The notes below the pieces were generated by a model. It was not told the origin of the DNA and made no database searches. It was given only the letters and a program-made list of their open reading frames with translations. A program made the translations under genes and the position numbers. Below, piece after piece: positions 26,666-64,000 of a stretch of DNA of 64,000 bases. The stretch is from Candidatus Gastranaerophilales bacterium (GTDB taxonomy: Bacteria; Cyanobacteriota; Vampirovibrionia; Gastranaerophilales; Gastranaerophilaceae), in assembly GCA_905234865.1 (NCBI GenBank), contig CAJOJE010000002.1:1-64000 (forward strand), given 5' to 3'. How positions within the stretch are numbered: the stretch's first letter is position 1; the number at the start of each line of letters is the position of its first letter.

Positions 26666-27766
26666 TTAATACAAACTTTGTTGTTCGTTAGGATTGGTTA
26701 TTCCGAGCATACGTCTTAATTCGTCGACATGCTGAGATTTTGTAAGCGCATCTTCAACTGTTACAAGCTTTGCCTGAACCAAATCACGAAGCGCCATATC
26801 AAGAGTTTGCATGCCAAGCTGCGTACCTGTTTGAAGCGCTGAATAAATTTGTGCCGTTTTTTGCTCACGAATTAAGTTTGAAATAGCACCCGTTACAACC
26901 ATTATCTCTTGTGCCATGACACGCCCTTTTTTTGTAACGCCGTCAGGAGAGAGCTTTTGTAATAAAGTTTGAGAGAAAACGGCAACCAAACTGTTTGACA
27001 ATTGAAGTCTTGCCTGCTGCTGCTGCCCTTGCGGGAAAACGTCAACAATACGGTCAATCGTCTGTGAAGCGCTTGATGTGTGAAGCGTTGCAAGAACAAG
27101 GTGACCCGTTTCTGCGGCGGTAAGCGCAAGCGACATTGTTTCCATATCCCTCATCTCACCTACGAGGATAACGTCAGGGTCCTCACGCAAAGCTGATTTC
27201 AGAGCATTTGCCATACTTCTTGTATCTTGCCCCAATTCTCTCTGGTGTACGATACTTTTCTTTGAGGAATGAATAAATTCGACAGGATCCTCCATCGTAA
27301 TAATATGTTCCGCTCTTGTGGAATTAATATAATCAATCATCGCCGCAAGAGTCGTTGATTTACCGGAGCCTGTCGGTCCTGTTACCAAAATTAAGCCTCT
27401 GGGGCGGTTTGAAACCGTTTTCATAACTTCGGGAAGTCCCAAACTTTCAAACGTGGGCGGATTAGAATTTACCGTTCTGAATGCGGCAGCATAATTGCCC
27501 TTATCTTTATAAAAATTTACCCTGAAACGCCCGAGCCCATGTAAGCCGTAACCGAAGTCGAGTTCCCAAGTTTGTTCAAGGGTTCTTCTTTGTTCGTTTG
27601 TTAAAATCGGAAACAAAAGCGCTTCAACATCATCGGGCGACAATACGGGCAAATTCGTTCTTAAAAGTTGACCGTCAACTCTTATGACGGGGGGAAGATA
27701 CGAACTTATATGAATATCCGATGCGCCTTGTTTTACCGCTAATTCCAAAACATCTTCTATAATCAT
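26666..27766 (-). CDS. pilT: Type IV pilus retraction ATPase PilT
   Basis: PilT is the hexameric ATPase that depolymerises type IV pili. The 366-residue protein has the N-terminal PAS-like domain (QGASDIHISSYLPPVIRVDG), Walker A GPTGSGKSTTLAAMIDY, the Asp box ITMEDPVEFIH, Walker B VILVGEMRDMETMSLALTAA, and the His box ETGHLVLATLHT. The C-terminal AIRNLIRE-type helix of PilT is present as AISNLIREQ. It implies a functional type IV pilus machine outside the window, relevant to the prepilin-like genes at 58679-64000. Confidence 0.95.
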   Translation of the reverse strand: MIIEDVLELAVKQGASDIHISSYLPPVIRVDGQLLRTNLPVLSPDDVEALLFPILTNEQRRTLEQTWELDFGYGLHGLGRFRVNFYKDKGNYAAAFRTVNSNPPTFESLGLPEVMKTVSNRPRGLILVTGPTGSGKSTTLAAMIDYINSTRAEHIITMEDPVEFIHSSKKSIVHQRELGQDTRSMANALKSALREDPDVILVGEMRDMETMSLALTAAETGHLVLATLHTSSASQTIDRIVDVFPQGQQQQARLQLSNSLVAVFSQTLLQKLSPDGVTKKGRVMAQEIMVVTGAISNLIREQKTAQIYSALQTGTQLGMQTLDMALRDLVQAKLVTVEDALTKSQHVDELRRMLGITNPNEQQSLY

Positions 27767-51422: not shown

Positions 51423-52260
51423 ACTCTCGATTGAAGCGGCAAAATATCTCAATACGGAAATTATTTGCGCCGATTCAAGAATAGTTTACAAAGATTTAGA
51501 CATAGTTTCCGCAAAACCAACTCTAAGGGAACAAGAAGGAATTATTCATCATTTAATTGATATAAAATCCCCGATTGAGGGAGATTATTCCTGTGGAGAT
51601 TTTGTAAGGGGCGCAAAAGAAATTATTGATAATTCCAAGAGTTCTCCGATAATAATTCAAGGAGGAACATGGTTTTACATAAAAAGCCTTTTAGACAGTA
51701 AAAATCTGCCCGAATACGGACAAAATCCGAAACTTAGAAAAGAGCTCGAAAAATATACAAATGATGAACTTTATGAAATATTAAAAGAAAAGGACGAAAA
51801 AAGAGCATTATTAATTCATAAAAATAATCGTGACAAAATCATACGCTCAATTGAATTAACGGAAGCAATTCAAGGTAAAATTTCAGAATATGAAAGAAAA
51901 GACAACGAACAATACGAAACCCTTTGGTTTATGAAAGACTATTCAAGAGAAGAACTTTACGAGAGAATAAATCTTAGAGTCGATATTATGATAAAAGACG
52001 GTTTGTATGAAGAATGGCTTAAAAATAAAGAAAAATACGGCAGACTGGAAATTTTATATAACACGATTGGATATCGAGAATTTTTCGATCTTGAAGACAA
52101 TATATACAAGGATTTTGACGAAGCCGTTTCAAAAATTAAACAGCATACGAGAAATTTTGCCAAAAGACAATTGACTTGGTTTAGAACAAACAAAGATAAG
52201 CTTAATATTCATCTTGTATCAAATACAAATGATATCTTAAAATTCTACGACGAGCGTTAA
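51373..52260 (+). CDS. miaA: tRNA dimethylallyltransferase
   Basis: MiaA adds a dimethylallyl group to A37 of tRNAs that read UNN codons. The 295-residue protein has the P-loop TGATASGKTKLSIEAA, DSRIVYKDLDIVSAKP, HHLIDI, the QGGTWFYIKSLL segment and the C-terminal KQHTRNFAKRQLTWFRT. Length is normal. Its last 24 bp overlap the convergent TonB-like gene. Confidence 0.96.
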   Translation: MKKILVITGATASGKTKLSIEAAKYLNTEIICADSRIVYKDLDIVSAKPTLREQEGIIHHLIDIKSPIEGDYSCGDFVRGAKEIIDNSKSSPIIIQGGTWFYIKSLLDSKNLPEYGQNPKLRKELEKYTNDELYEILKEKDEKRALLIHKNNRDKIIRSIELTEAIQGKISEYERKDNEQYETLWFMKDYSREELYERINLRVDIMIKDGLYEEWLKNKEKYGRLEILYNTIGYREFFDLEDNIYKDFDEAVSKIKQHTRNFAKRQLTWFRTNKDKLNIHLVSNTNDILKFYDER

Positions 52261-53661
52261 ACCGTTTTTATTTCCTACGAATGCTCCTTTTGGAGGGTGC
52301 ATATATCTAAGGGTATTTTCTACGCTTTCTCTTAACATATCATCAACTGCGCCCGAGCCTGAGGATTTACTTACAATAACTTCATCCAAACTGCCGTCCC
52401 TTAAAAATCTTATATCGAATTTAACTTTGTTGCTCATAGCGATTTGATTAGACAACAACAAGTCGTTTTGAAGATTTAACCTAATTGTTTTTCCTGCTTG
52501 TTGAAGGAAATTTCTTTGAGATTCCGATTTAATGTCGGATGAAACTTCCCACGAAACTTTAGAAACGGTCATATATCCGCCTCTTTCATCAATTTTAGGT
52601 GCAACAAAATCATCATACCCGTTGTTTTCTTCTTGATTATAGGCAGTGTCCTCAACGTATTCCTGAGTTTCTTTGGATGGCATATTTTTTCGGTTTGCAA
52701 GACTTGTTGCGGAAACAACCAAAGCACACAATAAAAATACTACGGCAACAGAAATTGCAGCCATTTTCTTTAAGTTATCGGGAATATCCGCAACGGAAGA
52801 AAAGCCTATTTTCTCATTTTTTAAACCCTTAAAATCTTCGGGATTATAGATTATGTCAATTGCACCTTTAACGCTTTCACCGTCAGATTTTACGGGGCTT
52901 TCAATTTTAGACATAAATTTTTCTTTTGTAACAATTTGTTGTTCCGGTTTTTTTTGAGTTTCCTGAACATCGGCTATAACAGGTTTATGCTGCGTAATTG
53001 TTTTTGATGTTTCATCAAATTCGATTGTTTCAATCAAACTTTTTTTGCATGTTTCGCAAGACAATATATGTCTTATTAAAAACTTTTTATCCGTATCGCT
53101 TATTTCAGAATCAACGTACGGAACAAATAAATTCATACAATCTAAATGGCGCCCGATTGAAGGTTTAATTCCGGTATAAACTTTTAATTTTTCAATTAAT
53201 TTTTCAATAGGAGATATTTTATCAAAATCGGCTTTATAATATCTTCCGTCATTTTCGTATTTGTGTAAGTCTTCCGCAAAAATTGCACCTTTTACTTCAG
53301 CTTCTTTCATACCTATTTTAAGGTCAACAATTAAATATGCCTCAGGTAAAATTTCGTATTTTGAATGTAAAACGGGAATTTTAATTTGGCTTGAGCCGTA
53401 AGTCGTTATTACATATAAAGTGTGAGAATTGCAATAAATATCGGCAATTTGAAAATCCCTATACAGCCTGTTACATTTGAATATACTTCTTGCGGTATTG
53501 GCTCTCAGTCTTTGAGAAGCTAAATAATCAATCGCAAAGAAAACTCCCGTAAATTCAACATACGCTCTTTTTCTTTGCATAGAATCACTTAACCTCGAGG
53601 ATAATGCTTTAGCCTCTTGGTGTTGTTTATCCGTAATAACAGATGATAATGTCTGGTACAT
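52237..53661 (-). CDS. ZAS-type zinc-finger, TM and TonB-C-like domain protein
   Basis: The 474-residue protein starts at ATG 53661 with GAGG in front. Its N-terminal ~165 residues are an unassigned soluble domain. Then comes H198-x3-C202-x2-C205 (RHILSCETCKK), the anti-sigma zinc-binding pattern (Hx3Cx2C), a Lys/Gln-rich linker, one membrane span (about 299-321), and a C-terminal TonB-like domain (KVKFDIRFLRDGSLDEVIV ... LRYMHPPKG). The order puts the zinc module in the cytoplasm and the TonB-like domain in the periplasm. It may sense or transmit envelope state, but no partner is visible. Confidence 0.65.
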   Translation of the reverse strand: MYQTLSSVITDKQHQEAKALSSRLSDSMQRKRAYVEFTGVFFAIDYLASQRLRANTARSIFKCNRLYRDFQIADIYCNSHTLYVITTYGSSQIKIPVLHSKYEILPEAYLIVDLKIGMKEAEVKGAIFAEDLHKYENDGRYYKADFDKISPIEKLIEKLKVYTGIKPSIGRHLDCMNLFVPYVDSEISDTDKKFLIRHILSCETCKKSLIETIEFDETSKTITQHKPVIADVQETQKKPEQQIVTKEKFMSKIESPVKSDGESVKGAIDIIYNPEDFKGLKNEKIGFSSVADIPDNLKKMAAISVAVVFLLCALVVSATSLANRKNMPSKETQEYVEDTAYNQEENNGYDDFVAPKIDERGGYMTVSKVSWEVSSDIKSESQRNFLQQAGKTIRLNLQNDLLLSNQIAMSNKVKFDIRFLRDGSLDEVIVSKSSGSGAVDDMLRESVENTLRYMHPPKGAFVGNKNGLTLVVEF

Positions 53662-53714
53662 TTTCAACCTCACTCCTATACAATAGGATTACACAATTTC
53701 TCTTTTTTTTCAAA

Positions 53715-58678: not shown

Positions 58679-61336
58679 CTATTCCTCAGGACGATTCCAC
58701 GTTATGAATACATAACCGTTTTGACCGTCACCGCCACTACCTGAGCCTTGTTGCATATTCCAGCCGCCGCCTCCGCCGCCTGCACCTGCTGCGCCCAAAT
58801 ATTCACCCGATTCAACGGAATATTGAGGCGGAATAAACTCGGCAGTATGACCATTTGGGGTAGAATATGTACAACCGTCAAAAAAATCATCTCTTTTGAA
58901 GAATATATGTTGATTATTTATAGGTAAACCAAAAGTCCCTTGGAATTTATTCGGTTCATAAGAAATGCTTCTTTCATCCCGTCCGAATGCGGCTTCATTA
59001 CCCATAAAAAATCCGCCGCAACCTGCCTTTGTACCGAGCGGCGAAAAACCGCCGAGTCCGCCCGGATAATATTTAAAGCTGTACGAAGCGTCAACATTTT
59101 TATAATATAATCCATTATAGACATAGTTTGAACTTCCGCCCGTAAACGTTTCATATACGGGGGAATTTAAACTCACATAATTATAAAGACTTGAATAATA
59201 AGAACCGTTTTCCGAAGATGAGGGTTTATAATAACCGCTAAAGCTACCAAAATAACCATTATAATCTTGTGTATACGGATTTATATTTGTAGTGCTGCCA
59301 GGATTGTAAGTATTTATACTAAGAGCATAATACGGAGATGTTAAATCATAAAGATGTGTATAAACCATTCTTTTTAAATTAATATCTTCTTTAATAGCTT
59401 GTCTTGCACCCCCGGGGGTATACCAAAGTACATTTGTAGTTTTAAGGTTATATTCGCCACCACTTATTGAATTAAATTTATATGTAGAATACAAAATATA
59501 TTTCGGATCATAATTAAGATATTCATAATTTCCCGCTCTGCTCAACGAGCCTTCTGTCGTATGACCGTAATAGCTTTTGGTTCCAAAGAAAGACATGTTT
59601 GCAAACTCTGCACGTCTTGGTAAATCGGGATTTGGAGCATAATTAGAGTAATCTATCGTTGTTACCTGTTGACCGCTTGATGATACCGTTGTTCCGACAG
59701 GAACGGTAAGTGCTCCCGTATTTACATATCCGCCAAAACCGCCTATTCCGCCTATTACAAGAAATAGCGTATTTCCTTCTTCATCGTAAATTGCAGTTGA
59801 AGAACCTGCTTCTCCGTCATAACCTACCGTCGCATTTTGCATAAGCGACCCGTCTGACATAATTCTTCCTGAATGTCCCGCACTGCCGCCTTTTCCGCCT
59901 GCACCGACAACAATTGTATATTTTGCACCGGGCTTAACAGGGAAATTAAGAACTCTGATTAAATTTCCGCCCACTCCGCCACTTCCGACACCGCCCGGGT
60001 GTTCAAGCGTTAAAGTTACATGTCCGAAATTTTGAAAGTTTACGGTAGAATTTGACGTTTGGTAATCAGCACGACCCATTGCTCTTGTAACCGTAGGATA
60101 ATTTTCATATCCTGATGAAGTATTTTCACCATATACGCCGTTAATATTATTATTAAACTGGCAATAAAGATAGTTAGCACAATAAAATTGTCTTGATTGA
60201 CCCCTGCCGCCTGCACCTACTCTTCGCCCCGCATAGTTAAAGCTTCCGCCTTCACCGCCTTGAAGAACAACTCCCGAGGCAGTATATCCTTTTGTCGTCA
60301 AAACAGATGTTTTTCCGGGCACAGGATACATGATATTTGCTTCATTAATCGCCCAATATTGCTCGGAATCAAATCCTTTTACGGCTTTTGTATCTCCGTT
60401 TAACCAAGTAAAAGCATTACTTGCCTTGCCGTATGTATTATTTGGAATACCCAAAAACAGCATATAGCTTGGGGATGATACGCTGCCATCGGCTACATAA
60501 TACCCCTTTAAACCGTAATTATCATCATTCATATTAACATTTCTTGTATAACTTCCGTCACTTGTTTTGGTATCAACCAAAAAGCCGAGTCCCGCAAAAG
60601 ACGATAAAGACGAATAATAAGAATTACTACTTCTTATGGAATCAACATCACTTTGGGTTATAAAAGATAAATCCACTTTTGGGTCAAATTCGTTAACGTA
60701 TAATTTGGGTTCAAACTGAGTAACAATATCCTGCCCCATAATAACGGCATCAAATAACCCCGTACCCGAACGTCCTCCGGTACCAAGGTTCAATTGCGAA
60801 GAATTACTGCTTCCGTCATAGTTGCTTCCGTCAGCACCCTTTCCGACAAGAGCATTAATTTTTAATTCTTTAATTCTTGCCTTCGGAACATTTATAAGCT
60901 TTTCTACAAGGTATGTACCGCTTGATGTTGTATTTCCGTAATACAAATCTTTTGTATACAACATACTTCCTGCGGCACCGCCTCCTCCGCCGCCGCCTGC
61001 AACCATGGTGAGATTAATTCTATATACGCCTTTTGGGATAACAAATTCATATTTTTGACATTTACCGACATATCTCGGAGAAAGAATTAAGCTACTGTAA
61101 TCATAGCTTCTTGAAGGTTTAGCACAAGTATAATTAACAAAAGACTCTTCATTTGTTAAATTATTGTAATTATACAAAAATAATGCCGAACCGCCTCTTG
61201 CAAATTTTGACGAGTTGTGCTTTCTATATTGCGTTACAACAGGAAACATAAGTATTAATACCAACATAAGAATGGTAATTGATATCATGATTTCAACAAG
61301 AGAAAAACTGTCTGCTTTTTTAATATATTTTTTCAT
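58679..61336 (-). CDS. Large glycine-rich prepilin-like surface protein (1)
   Basis: The 885-residue protein starts at ATG 61336 with AGGTG upstream. The N terminus has a basic segment, then DSFSLVEIMISITILMLVLI, a type III (prepilin) signal with Glu at +5 and Ser at the cleavage site instead of Gly. A beta-rich domain (YEFVIPKGVYRINLTMV) leads into an AGGGGGGGAAG block, and further Gly-rich blocks recur up to GAAGAGGGGGGWN near the C terminus, which ends GQNGYVFITWNRP. About 25 Tyr- and Ser-rich segments lie between. It is probably assembled or anchored by the type IV pilus/type II secretion route. It is the last gene of a tandem set. Confidence 0.75.
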   Translation of the reverse strand: MKKYIKKADSFSLVEIMISITILMLVLILMFPVVTQYRKHNSSKFARGGSALFLYNYNNLTNEESFVNYTCAKPSRSYDYSSLILSPRYVGKCQKYEFVIPKGVYRINLTMVAGGGGGGGAAGSMLYTKDLYYGNTTSSGTYLVEKLINVPKARIKELKINALVGKGADGSNYDGSSNSSQLNLGTGGRSGTGLFDAVIMGQDIVTQFEPKLYVNEFDPKVDLSFITQSDVDSIRSSNSYYSSLSSFAGLGFLVDTKTSDGSYTRNVNMNDDNYGLKGYYVADGSVSSPSYMLFLGIPNNTYGKASNAFTWLNGDTKAVKGFDSEQYWAINEANIMYPVPGKTSVLTTKGYTASGVVLQGGEGGSFNYAGRRVGAGGRGQSRQFYCANYLYCQFNNNINGVYGENTSSGYENYPTVTRAMGRADYQTSNSTVNFQNFGHVTLTLEHPGGVGSGGVGGNLIRVLNFPVKPGAKYTIVVGAGGKGGSAGHSGRIMSDGSLMQNATVGYDGEAGSSTAIYDEEGNTLFLVIGGIGGFGGYVNTGALTVPVGTTVSSSGQQVTTIDYSNYAPNPDLPRRAEFANMSFFGTKSYYGHTTEGSLSRAGNYEYLNYDPKYILYSTYKFNSISGGEYNLKTTNVLWYTPGGARQAIKEDINLKRMVYTHLYDLTSPYYALSINTYNPGSTTNINPYTQDYNGYFGSFSGYYKPSSSENGSYYSSLYNYVSLNSPVYETFTGGSSNYVYNGLYYKNVDASYSFKYYPGGLGGFSPLGTKAGCGGFFMGNEAAFGRDERSISYEPNKFQGTFGLPINNQHIFFKRDDFFDGCTYSTPNGHTAEFIPPQYSVESGEYLGAAGAGGGGGGWNMQQGSGSGGDGQNGYVFITWNRPEE

Positions 61337-61345
61337 TAATTTCAC

Positions 61346-63682
61346 CTATTTGACATATTCAATTACGACAAACCCTGCTTGACCCGCAGCGCCCGAACCG
61401 CCTCCGAGTTTTATCGAGTATCCTCCGCCGCCGCCGCCTGTACCGCCTGAACCATAGTTACCCGATTTTGGATCGGGTTTTTGATAAGTTGCCGTTGCAC
61501 CGTTATTGTGTTCATCTCTAACACACCCTTCAAAATAATGAGCGACTTTATGTGCCGTATAAGGAAAACTTCTGGCAAAAGTACCTTCCTCACTATTAGT
61601 GTATATTGTTTCCCGATAAGTATGCATTTTTACGCAACCATCACCCGTACAAGCCGAGAGGTCCGAATTAACGCAATTAGTACCGTCAAAATCCCAATTA
61701 CCACAACCGTATTGATCGCCGTTAAAATATCCGCCACAACCTGCTCTACCGCCAAAACCCGTAAAACCGCCAAGGCCACCGACGTATGCAATAGCTCTTG
61801 CGGAATCTATTTGTTTAGTATACCAAAAGCCGTTTTGTCTACCGTTAATCGAACCGAAATTGTGATTGTTATCATATGTATCATTACTAACTTGGGAGCT
61901 GCCTGAAACTACATTATTCCAATTCGTTCTTTCATATCCGCTAAAGCCGCCATGGGTATAATCCGTAGAGGATTTAGTTGCAGCACCGTTTCTATCAATC
62001 GTTTTATAGGGTTCTACATTAAAAATCGGATAATTTAACAGTTTTGTATAGCTGTTATCAACACTGCTCGGATATCCCGTCGTATTTGTAACATAGCTTC
62101 CGCCGTTCGTTACATAATTAACATAATTTGTATCTAAAGTAGGCGTAGCAATAGAACTATATGTTGATGAAGTAAACAATTTCGGTACATTTCTTCCTGA
62201 CTGACCTATTGCGCCGGGCGTACCGGTAGAAGTTGAATATTTGCCGCCAATACCTTGAGCACCGCCATTTACCATATAAATTACGTTACCCGAACTGTCA
62301 TATATTGCACTTGAAACTCCGCCCGTACCGTCTGAGCCGTTTGTAGGATTAGAACTTGTATATCCGCCTTTTCCGCCTGTACCGCCCGCACCTACTCTTA
62401 CATAATAAGTTTGCCCGGGAGTAACTTTTAAACGTTTTATTTTCACCATAGTGCCGCCTGCGCCGCCGCCGCCCGTTCCGCCTGCATCTTCTTCAACCCA
62501 GCTTGTATAAATGCACCCCGGCTCACCCTTTGTTGCACCAAAATACATTTTGGTCCAATCCTCATTACCGTCTACATTTAATAACGCTGTCGGCGTTGCA
62601 TTATTAACGGAGCAAATGCTTGCATTATCAGGACAAAGAAATATTCCGCTTTCTCCGATACCGCCTTGTCCGCATGTACCGTAACCCAGCGCTTGTCCGT
62701 CGGAAGAATGCGGAACACCGCCAAGCAAAGGTTGTTTATTCGCAACGCTGTATCCTGAATATACAAAAGAACCGTATTCTGCCCCATAACCCTGACGATA
62801 ATTTCTCATAGGAATATGGCACTTTTCAAAAAATGAGTTACCCCTTTGTTCGCTACCCTGAAATAAAGAAACATCTCCGTATGAGCAGCCGAAATATGCA
62901 TCGGTAGTTCCTGAAGTCAGAGCATAGTCCTCTCCTCTTTCATCTCCGAAACCGTTTATCCAGTATTGCGCCATATTGGTTGAATAATCCGTTTCAAACA
63001 TTTGAACGGAAAAACTGTACGGATCTCTAATCGTTTGATCGTCAACAAGTTTAATAGTTACCTGTTTTGGAGCTCTTATGCTTGCAATATGGCGATAACC
63101 GCCGATTAAAAATGAAGGCCATTCAAAATCGACAAGAGCCGGCGAAGTTCTTCCGCTTCTTGGAGCGCAATAAGTTCCGCCATATAAACATCTTCTTTCG
63201 CTAAAAGGTTCTCCGGCTTCACCGTAACCCGACATATAGTTTATTTTAAAATTCTTCATTCTTTCTGTGTACAGATTAATTGTTTCCATAACATCCGTTG
63301 TGGAAGCACCGTTCATTATAGAAGCACCTACAATATGTGCTTCTTTATCTATTGTTTTTCCGCCTGCAGCGCCGCCTCCGCCGCCGCCTCCCGCTACAAG
63401 AGTTAAATCAATGTAATTAACGCCTGTCGGAACAGTAAAAGCATATTCGGAGCACTTATTCGTTTCAATATAAGTTTCCGTTGAAGAACCGTCAGACACT
63501 GATGTTTGATAGCATACGTTATTTTTAGCATTATTTGAATCGGTATATGAATAAATTTCATAATGCCTATCTTTTATTGACGTTTTTTTTAAGAATAGCG
63601 GAGCTAAAGCTACAAGTCCGACGGACAATATTAATAAAGTTACTATAACTTCTGCAAGTGAAAAACTCTTTAATTGTTTCAT
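61346..63682 (-). CDS. Large glycine-rich prepilin-like surface protein (2)
   Basis: The 778-residue protein opens MKQLKSFSLAEVIVTLLILS, again a prepilin-like start with Ser before FSLAE. After a short Cys-containing stretch, YAFTVPTGVNYIDLTLV leads into AGGGGGGGAAGG, and the C terminus runs GSGGTGGGGGGYS to GFVVIEYVK. More Cys residues than in protein 1 (for example CGQGGIGESGIFLC) suggest disulfides. Same domain plan as its neighbour. No strong Shine-Dalgarno precedes the ATG, so it may be translated from an operon transcript. Confidence 0.75.
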   Translation of the reverse strand: MKQLKSFSLAEVIVTLLILSVGLVALAPLFLKKTSIKDRHYEIYSYTDSNNAKNNVCYQTSVSDGSSTETYIETNKCSEYAFTVPTGVNYIDLTLVAGGGGGGGAAGGKTIDKEAHIVGASIMNGASTTDVMETINLYTERMKNFKINYMSGYGEAGEPFSERRCLYGGTYCAPRSGRTSPALVDFEWPSFLIGGYRHIASIRAPKQVTIKLVDDQTIRDPYSFSVQMFETDYSTNMAQYWINGFGDERGEDYALTSGTTDAYFGCSYGDVSLFQGSEQRGNSFFEKCHIPMRNYRQGYGAEYGSFVYSGYSVANKQPLLGGVPHSSDGQALGYGTCGQGGIGESGIFLCPDNASICSVNNATPTALLNVDGNEDWTKMYFGATKGEPGCIYTSWVEEDAGGTGGGGAGGTMVKIKRLKVTPGQTYYVRVGAGGTGGKGGYTSSNPTNGSDGTGGVSSAIYDSSGNVIYMVNGGAQGIGGKYSTSTGTPGAIGQSGRNVPKLFTSSTYSSIATPTLDTNYVNYVTNGGSYVTNTTGYPSSVDNSYTKLLNYPIFNVEPYKTIDRNGAATKSSTDYTHGGFSGYERTNWNNVVSGSSQVSNDTYDNNHNFGSINGRQNGFWYTKQIDSARAIAYVGGLGGFTGFGGRAGCGGYFNGDQYGCGNWDFDGTNCVNSDLSACTGDGCVKMHTYRETIYTNSEEGTFARSFPYTAHKVAHYFEGCVRDEHNNGATATYQKPDPKSGNYGSGGTGGGGGGYSIKLGGGSGAAGQAGFVVIEYVK

Positions 63683-63705
63683 TTTTATTTAAGATTAAAC
63701 CTTTC

Positions 63706-64000
63706 TTACCTTGTCCAATCCAGCACAACATACCCCGGAGTGCCATTTGCGCCGTTTCCGCTTCTTTGTGTATTAATAAAACCGCCGCCCGAGCCTCCGT
63801 TTCCTGCTGAACCGTAATCTCTTTCAAGTACGTTCGGAAGAACTATCTCAAATTCTTCGGCATTTGGAGATGATACATTACAATGAGTAAAATATTTATT
63901 TATATCATAATATTGGTTATTTGATAAAGTAAAGGTATTCTTATATGTAGCATTCGTATAATTACCCGCTGAGTCCGTTCTGCCGTCAAAATTACCCATG
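63706..64000 (-). CDS. Glycine-rich protein (3), C-terminal part, cut by the window edge
   Basis: At least 98 codons are visible; the gene continues past position 64000. The end reads GSAGNGGSGGGFIN, then GANGTPGYVVLDWTR, the same closing pattern as proteins 1 and 2. It is the upstream member of the minus-strand tandem set, 23 bp before protein 2. The N terminus and any prepilin signal are outside the window. Confidence 0.7.
   Translation of the reverse strand, partial: MGNFDGRTDSAGNYTNATYKNTFTLSNNQYYDINKYFTHCNVSSPNAEEFEIVLPNVLERDYGSAGNGGSGGGFINTQRSGNGANGTPGYVVLDWTR

Follow-up and report, generated by a model that had tools for sequence, protein, structure and literature searches.

Three head-to-tail genes for giant prepilin-like proteins

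The window analysed here, the first 64,000 nucleotides of contig CAJOJE010000002.1 of a Candidatus Gastranaerophilales genome (GCA_905234865.1), closes with three minus-strand genes arranged head to tail. Gene A has its last 97 codons inside the window (63706..64000, minus strand) and is followed by gene B (61346..63682, minus strand; 778 aa) and gene C (58679..61345, minus strand), which encodes 888 aa if read from a GTG. The likelier start of C is the ATG at 61336, and the AGGTG 5′ of this ATG overlaps the stop codon of B. Extending the contig past position 64,000, as an earlier note on this DNA had proposed, recovered the whole of A (725 aa, reaching contig position 65883; L007:5707-7884), which also begins with a prepilin N terminus. 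A and B are separated by 23 bases and B and C abut, so the three form a single tightly spaced gene unit. On its 5′ side, judged by consensus matches only, the S1 gene is followed by a terminator-like hairpin, and A is preceded, at a distance of about 50 bases, by a promoter-like site. On the 3′ side, in the same direction, lie what we take, from reading the sequences, to be the gene for ribosomal protein L32 and then plsX-fabH-fabD-fabG; the trio is not adjacent to other pilus genes. Elsewhere in the window (52237-53673), a 478-aa protein has a TonB_2-like C terminus that scores over the cut-off, together with weak DUF1822 and zf-HC2 matches below it.

The earlier note had described the three proteins as alike in plan and about five times the size of a normal pilin. 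The size estimate is fair, and pairwise comparison revealed that the likeness reflects homology: a sequence search with B retrieved A with an E-value of 1.8e-32 and pieces of C with E-values of 7.9e-16, 3.2e-12 and 4.0e-6. Within the genus, 17 proteins align over their full length, with invariant Phe1, Glu5 and Pro22 (mature numbering), glycine blocks, and two cysteines that precede the first glycine run. A run of seven glycines followed by AAG, ascribed earlier to all three proteins, occurs in B (first run at residues 98-104; 63371..63391, minus strand) and in C (residues 117-123; 60977..60997, minus strand), whereas A has six glycines followed by SSG.

Prepilin signals and pilus machinery

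The N_methyl model PF07963 (cut-off 21.2 bits) matched B with 22.0 bits (63605..63679, minus strand), where a serine at −1 precedes FSLAEVIVTLLILSVGLVALAP, and C with 23.0 bits (61247..61312, minus strand), where a serine precedes FSLVEIMISITILMLVLILMFP, in agreement with the prepilin-type N termini first noticed in these two proteins. The N terminus of A, FSLAEVLIALIIVTAFMVVMAP, scored 18.8 bits, just under the cut-off. Each protein carries Phe+1, Glu+5 and Pro+22, and the only membrane segment is the one at the N terminus. Gly14, otherwise common, is missing from the trio, and residue −1 is Ser, Ser and Ala. Across the prepilin motifs of the genome this position is Gly in 15 cases, Ala in 13 and Ser in 6, and several homologues of the trio have Gly there. 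An ordinary Sec signal was rejected on the basis of the PF07963 matches and of −1 residues like those of the other prepilins in the genome; prepilin peptidase would be expected to cleave before Phe+1.

The components that such proteins would require are present. The genome encodes a single prepilin peptidase, a secretin (PilQ)-PilB-PilC operon on contig 17 and two PilT-like ATPases, which excludes a missing machinery. The pilT gene previously recognised within the window corresponds to a PF00437 ATPase (26666..27766, minus strand) that lies outside the array and is presumably part of the machine. None of the findings that the earlier note had named as contrary to its proposal (Sec signals, a missing peptidase, unrelated genes) was obtained. 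Gastranaerophilales are reported to carry type IV pilus genes (PMC5877343). A separate Tad-type set (secretin, CpaF-like ATPase and TadB/TadC-like proteins) lies at L124:4139-10986, on contig 2 at about 138-145 kb.

The HMMs used here poorly separate the secretin, ATPase and platform sets of type IV pili from those of type II secretion, and the trio might on that account be pseudopilins of a secretion system that push cargo without forming a surface fibre. We regard this as very unlikely, given that the genome has two PilT-like retraction ATPases, which are typical of pili, and that large heads with variable loops are not known from pseudopilins.

Genome-wide, B and C are among 35 N_methyl matches that exceed the cut-off, and about 30 other, smaller prepilins are dispersed over many contigs (loci L009-L037). 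These smaller prepilins bear on the earlier proposal of a surface structure built by a type IV machine from giant subunits. Its signals, machinery and sequence similarity stand; a thick filament composed mostly of giant glycine-rich pilins does not follow from them and appears improbable to us. Glu5 in all three proteins would permit stacking, and three homologous copies in tandem could suit a major subunit, but smaller prepilins are plentiful, the heads of the trio amount to 75-95 kDa, and structurally characterised type IVa major pilins have fewer than 165 residues, 208 being already unusual (PMC11046646).

Among the roughly 30 other prepilin-like genes, 18 belong to one family of roughly 310-410 aa that is scattered across the genome. 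Several contig ends lie within prepilin-like genes, and there are a few truncated prepilin copies whose frames run for 30-39 aa after Phe1.

A glycine-rich domain apparently in place of the pilin head

Behind the N terminus, the proteins resemble the Pfam family Gly_rich_2 (PF21722). The window proteins scored 18.9 and 22.2 bits, just below the gathering cut-off of 24.3, and the family matched 14 of the 17 genus members; close and distant homologues reached up to 52.8 bits, with E-values down to 7.1e-14 in other genera, where the end of the profile coincides with the C terminus of the protein. Reversed sequences of three glycine-headed proteins gave no match to Gly_rich_2 or N_methyl, and an artefact of low complexity or composition was rejected because these controls were empty. 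The strength of the matches in other genera and the empty controls together indicate that the glycine-rich part forms a genuine, ordered domain, as far as sequence can tell.

This domain begins about 85-100 residues after Phe1, and the intervening stretch shows no evident room for a full pilin head. The first Gly or Pro after Pro22 falls at a median of residue 35 in 37 glycine-headed prepilins; for 24 ordinary prepilins encoded by this genome the median is residue 55. Helix propensity after Pro22 is also clearly worse in the former than in the latter, which favour helix (p 2.5e-8, a value inflated by kinship among the sequences). AlphaFold2 (AF2), run on residues 1-110 of B with two alignment rows, placed a helix at residues 9-30 followed by strands, the helix alone being moderately confident; for the whole of B the pLDDT was 29.8. 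By the Gly/Pro statistic and by this partial model, which is only indicative, no complete small pilin module can be discerned ahead of the glycine-rich domain. The N-terminal helix thus appears to end soon after Pro22, with the glycine-rich domain replacing the normal head.

Conservation is concentrated in the N terminus and the glycine segments, and the loops are hardly conserved. Profile comparisons connect the groups along the N terminus and the first glycine region, with E-values of 7.6e-37 (A1-A3), 3.5e-20 (A4-A3) and 3.3e-18 (A4-A1), scores that derive in part from the common prepilin helix. The B proteins of genera g2 and g11 (L077, L081, L083) have only 330-365 aa and may represent a minimal form; another short homologue, at L075, has 482 aa. 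In genus g36, a glycine-headed prepilin (L072:3588-6014) carries a further inserted module inside its glycine-rich part, an Lcl_C-like stretch that matches PF07603 with an E-value of 1.5e-5, below the curated cut-off.

Distribution and divergence

The array was sought in related genomes: 8 of the 9 from the genus carry it, and the one that does not is an assembly of 85% completeness. Trios are seen in five genera (g1, g36, g6, g2 and g11), with differing neighbours and at different chromosomal sites. When a profile was built from the glycine-headed prepilins of other genera, 85 of 377 phylum genomes gave a match, and every one of them belonged to the window's own family; the weakest of these matches align over the prepilin helix only and may represent ordinary prepilins. 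The genus profile additionally matched one genome from another family of the same order. Glycine-headed prepilins are found in many genera of Gastranaerophilaceae. Photosystem reaction-centre genes, carried by 47 of the 117 genomes sampled from the phylum, were found in none from this family, which makes the organism a non-photosynthetic representative of the cyanobacterial phylum. In several genera the trio is followed by a smaller fourth prepilin of 205-321 aa (L075:3358-4269, L082:9311-10276, L077:4078-4695).

Among the phylum genomes, wherever the start of the frame was readable, Gly_rich_2 was not found behind a prepilin N terminus outside the family. That the domain occurs elsewhere in the phylum without such an N terminus, and that Gly14 is missing from the trio, with Ser or Ala at −1, would fit proteins merely anchored at the surface or in the periplasm, with a borrowed prepilin-like N terminus and no assembly. 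We judge this unlikely. Ala and Ser are frequent at −1 in this genome; Glu5 is kept in 37 of 37 homologues, as are Phe1 and, nearly always, Pro22 even in very diverged copies, residues that a mere anchor would not need; and an inner-membrane anchor in a diderm would leave the head stuck in the periplasm.

In a tree of the proteins, paralogues cluster by genus group and not by position in the array, except that, within g1, the C proteins group together and that A, B and C are each common to g2 and g11. Strict orthology of A, B and C across genera was therefore rejected. Long tracts of similar DNA between paralogues (83% over 1426 bases for B and C in genome G095; 75 identical bases reaching the contig end in G110) suggest exchange or repeated duplication among them. 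Between species the trio is 30-42% identical, with the neighbouring S1 protein at 85-88%. Divergence is about as great in an ordinary prepilin from the genome (33-44% identity), and a special evolutionary speed of the trio was rejected on this ground.

A probable role as minor, tip-exposed subunits

The explanation we favour, with a probability of roughly 60%, is that A, B and C are minor adhesive subunits exposed at the tip of a type IV pilus, with a glycine-rich scaffold in place of the usual head. The proteins would be anchored in the inner membrane by the N-terminal helix and trimmed before Phe+1 by the single prepilin peptidase, after which the PilB/PilC/PilQ machine would take them up through that helix, where Glu5 and Pro22 are kept. 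The head would consist of a short helix stub leading into the Gly_rich_2-type domain. There, six or seven glycine-rich segments together with conserved strands would form a scaffold for long variable loops rich in Tyr, Ser, Thr and Asn. Exposed at the tip, these loops may bind surfaces, host molecules or other cells, and the PilT-like ATPases would retract the fibre.

A minor or tip role is made likelier by the smaller prepilins in the genome, by the bulk of the heads and by the precedent of three-gene minor-pilin operons whose products cap pili (PMC9934059), and the recurrence of trios with different neighbours in five genera favours the explanation as a whole. Several observations weaken it. 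Tip complexes of the HIJK and PilABC kind hold one pilin without Glu5 (PMC9934059), whereas A, B and C all retain this residue; the trio lies apart from other pilus genes in a genome with a second, Tad-type machine; and the whole-protein model of B has very low confidence, while the helix-stub statistic comes from related sequences.

The closest parallels among pili are found in Streptococcus sanguinis, whose PilA-PilB-PilC operon encodes three pilins with bulky modules thought to cap the pilus and to bind host proteins and glycans (PMC8179133, PMC9934059). Like the modular pilins PilB and PilC, the proteins of the trio combine a prepilin N terminus with a large non-pilin domain in a three-gene operon, and by analogy they could likewise be minor subunits with a presumed role in adhesion at the tip. 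Unlike PilB and PilC, in which a module is added to a complete small pilin, they show no room for a full pilin head, and the trio consists of three homologous giants in tandem, all with Glu5. The HIJK complex (GspHIJK and its type IV equivalents; PMC9934059) is similar in being encoded by an operon of prepilin-like genes, in being thought to cap the filament and in having a bulky subunit, but it comprises four dissimilar small pilins rather than three homologous glycine-rich giants. The text of the modular-pilin survey (PMC8179133) does not name the glycine-rich domain.

In overall plan the head is comparable to the phage adhesin gp38, in which hypervariable loops that bind the receptor are mounted on a lattice of glycine helices (phages S16 and PP01; PMC6851490, PMC12892980). 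In both, hypervariable segments alternate with several glycine-rich motifs that include runs of 7-8 Gly; the two folds may differ. The trio proteins differ from gp38 in being pilins and not tail proteins, and sequence searches detected no homology to phage records or solved chains. PHROG tail-protein families matched the glycine-headed proteins weakly; phage records, plasmids and viral contigs contained no relatives of glycine-headed prepilins, and PDB sequence searches returned no related solved structure, the matches being pilin N termini or chance. More tentatively, a scaffold of glycine helices (polyglycine-II-like) may have replaced the classical pilin head throughout the family, providing a gp38-like receptor-binding design diversified by tandem duplication and exchange; we consider this broader scheme possible but doubtful.

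The usual picture of type IV pilins is of one head design to which modules are occasionally added; across this mostly uncultured family, a glycine-rich scaffold appears to have taken the place of the head itself. No paper in the literature searched combines 'prepilin' with 'glycine-rich domain', and the glycine-headed prepilins constitute a real class of type IV pilins that is undescribed within that literature. If confirmed, the exchange would widen the range of what a type IV machine can assemble, suggest in testable form how these bacteria attach, and connect the tips of pili and phage tails by a common design of glycine scaffold and variable loops.

With other PF21722 proteins the homologues from other genera share the same domain by HMM and the same C-terminal end, and they differ in their long insertions and in the fused prepilin N terminus. 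In another genome of the phylum (G597, contig 1, about 876-918 kb; L134, L150, L157 and L162), an open frame of 20,437 residues contains at least seven Gly_rich_2 domains.
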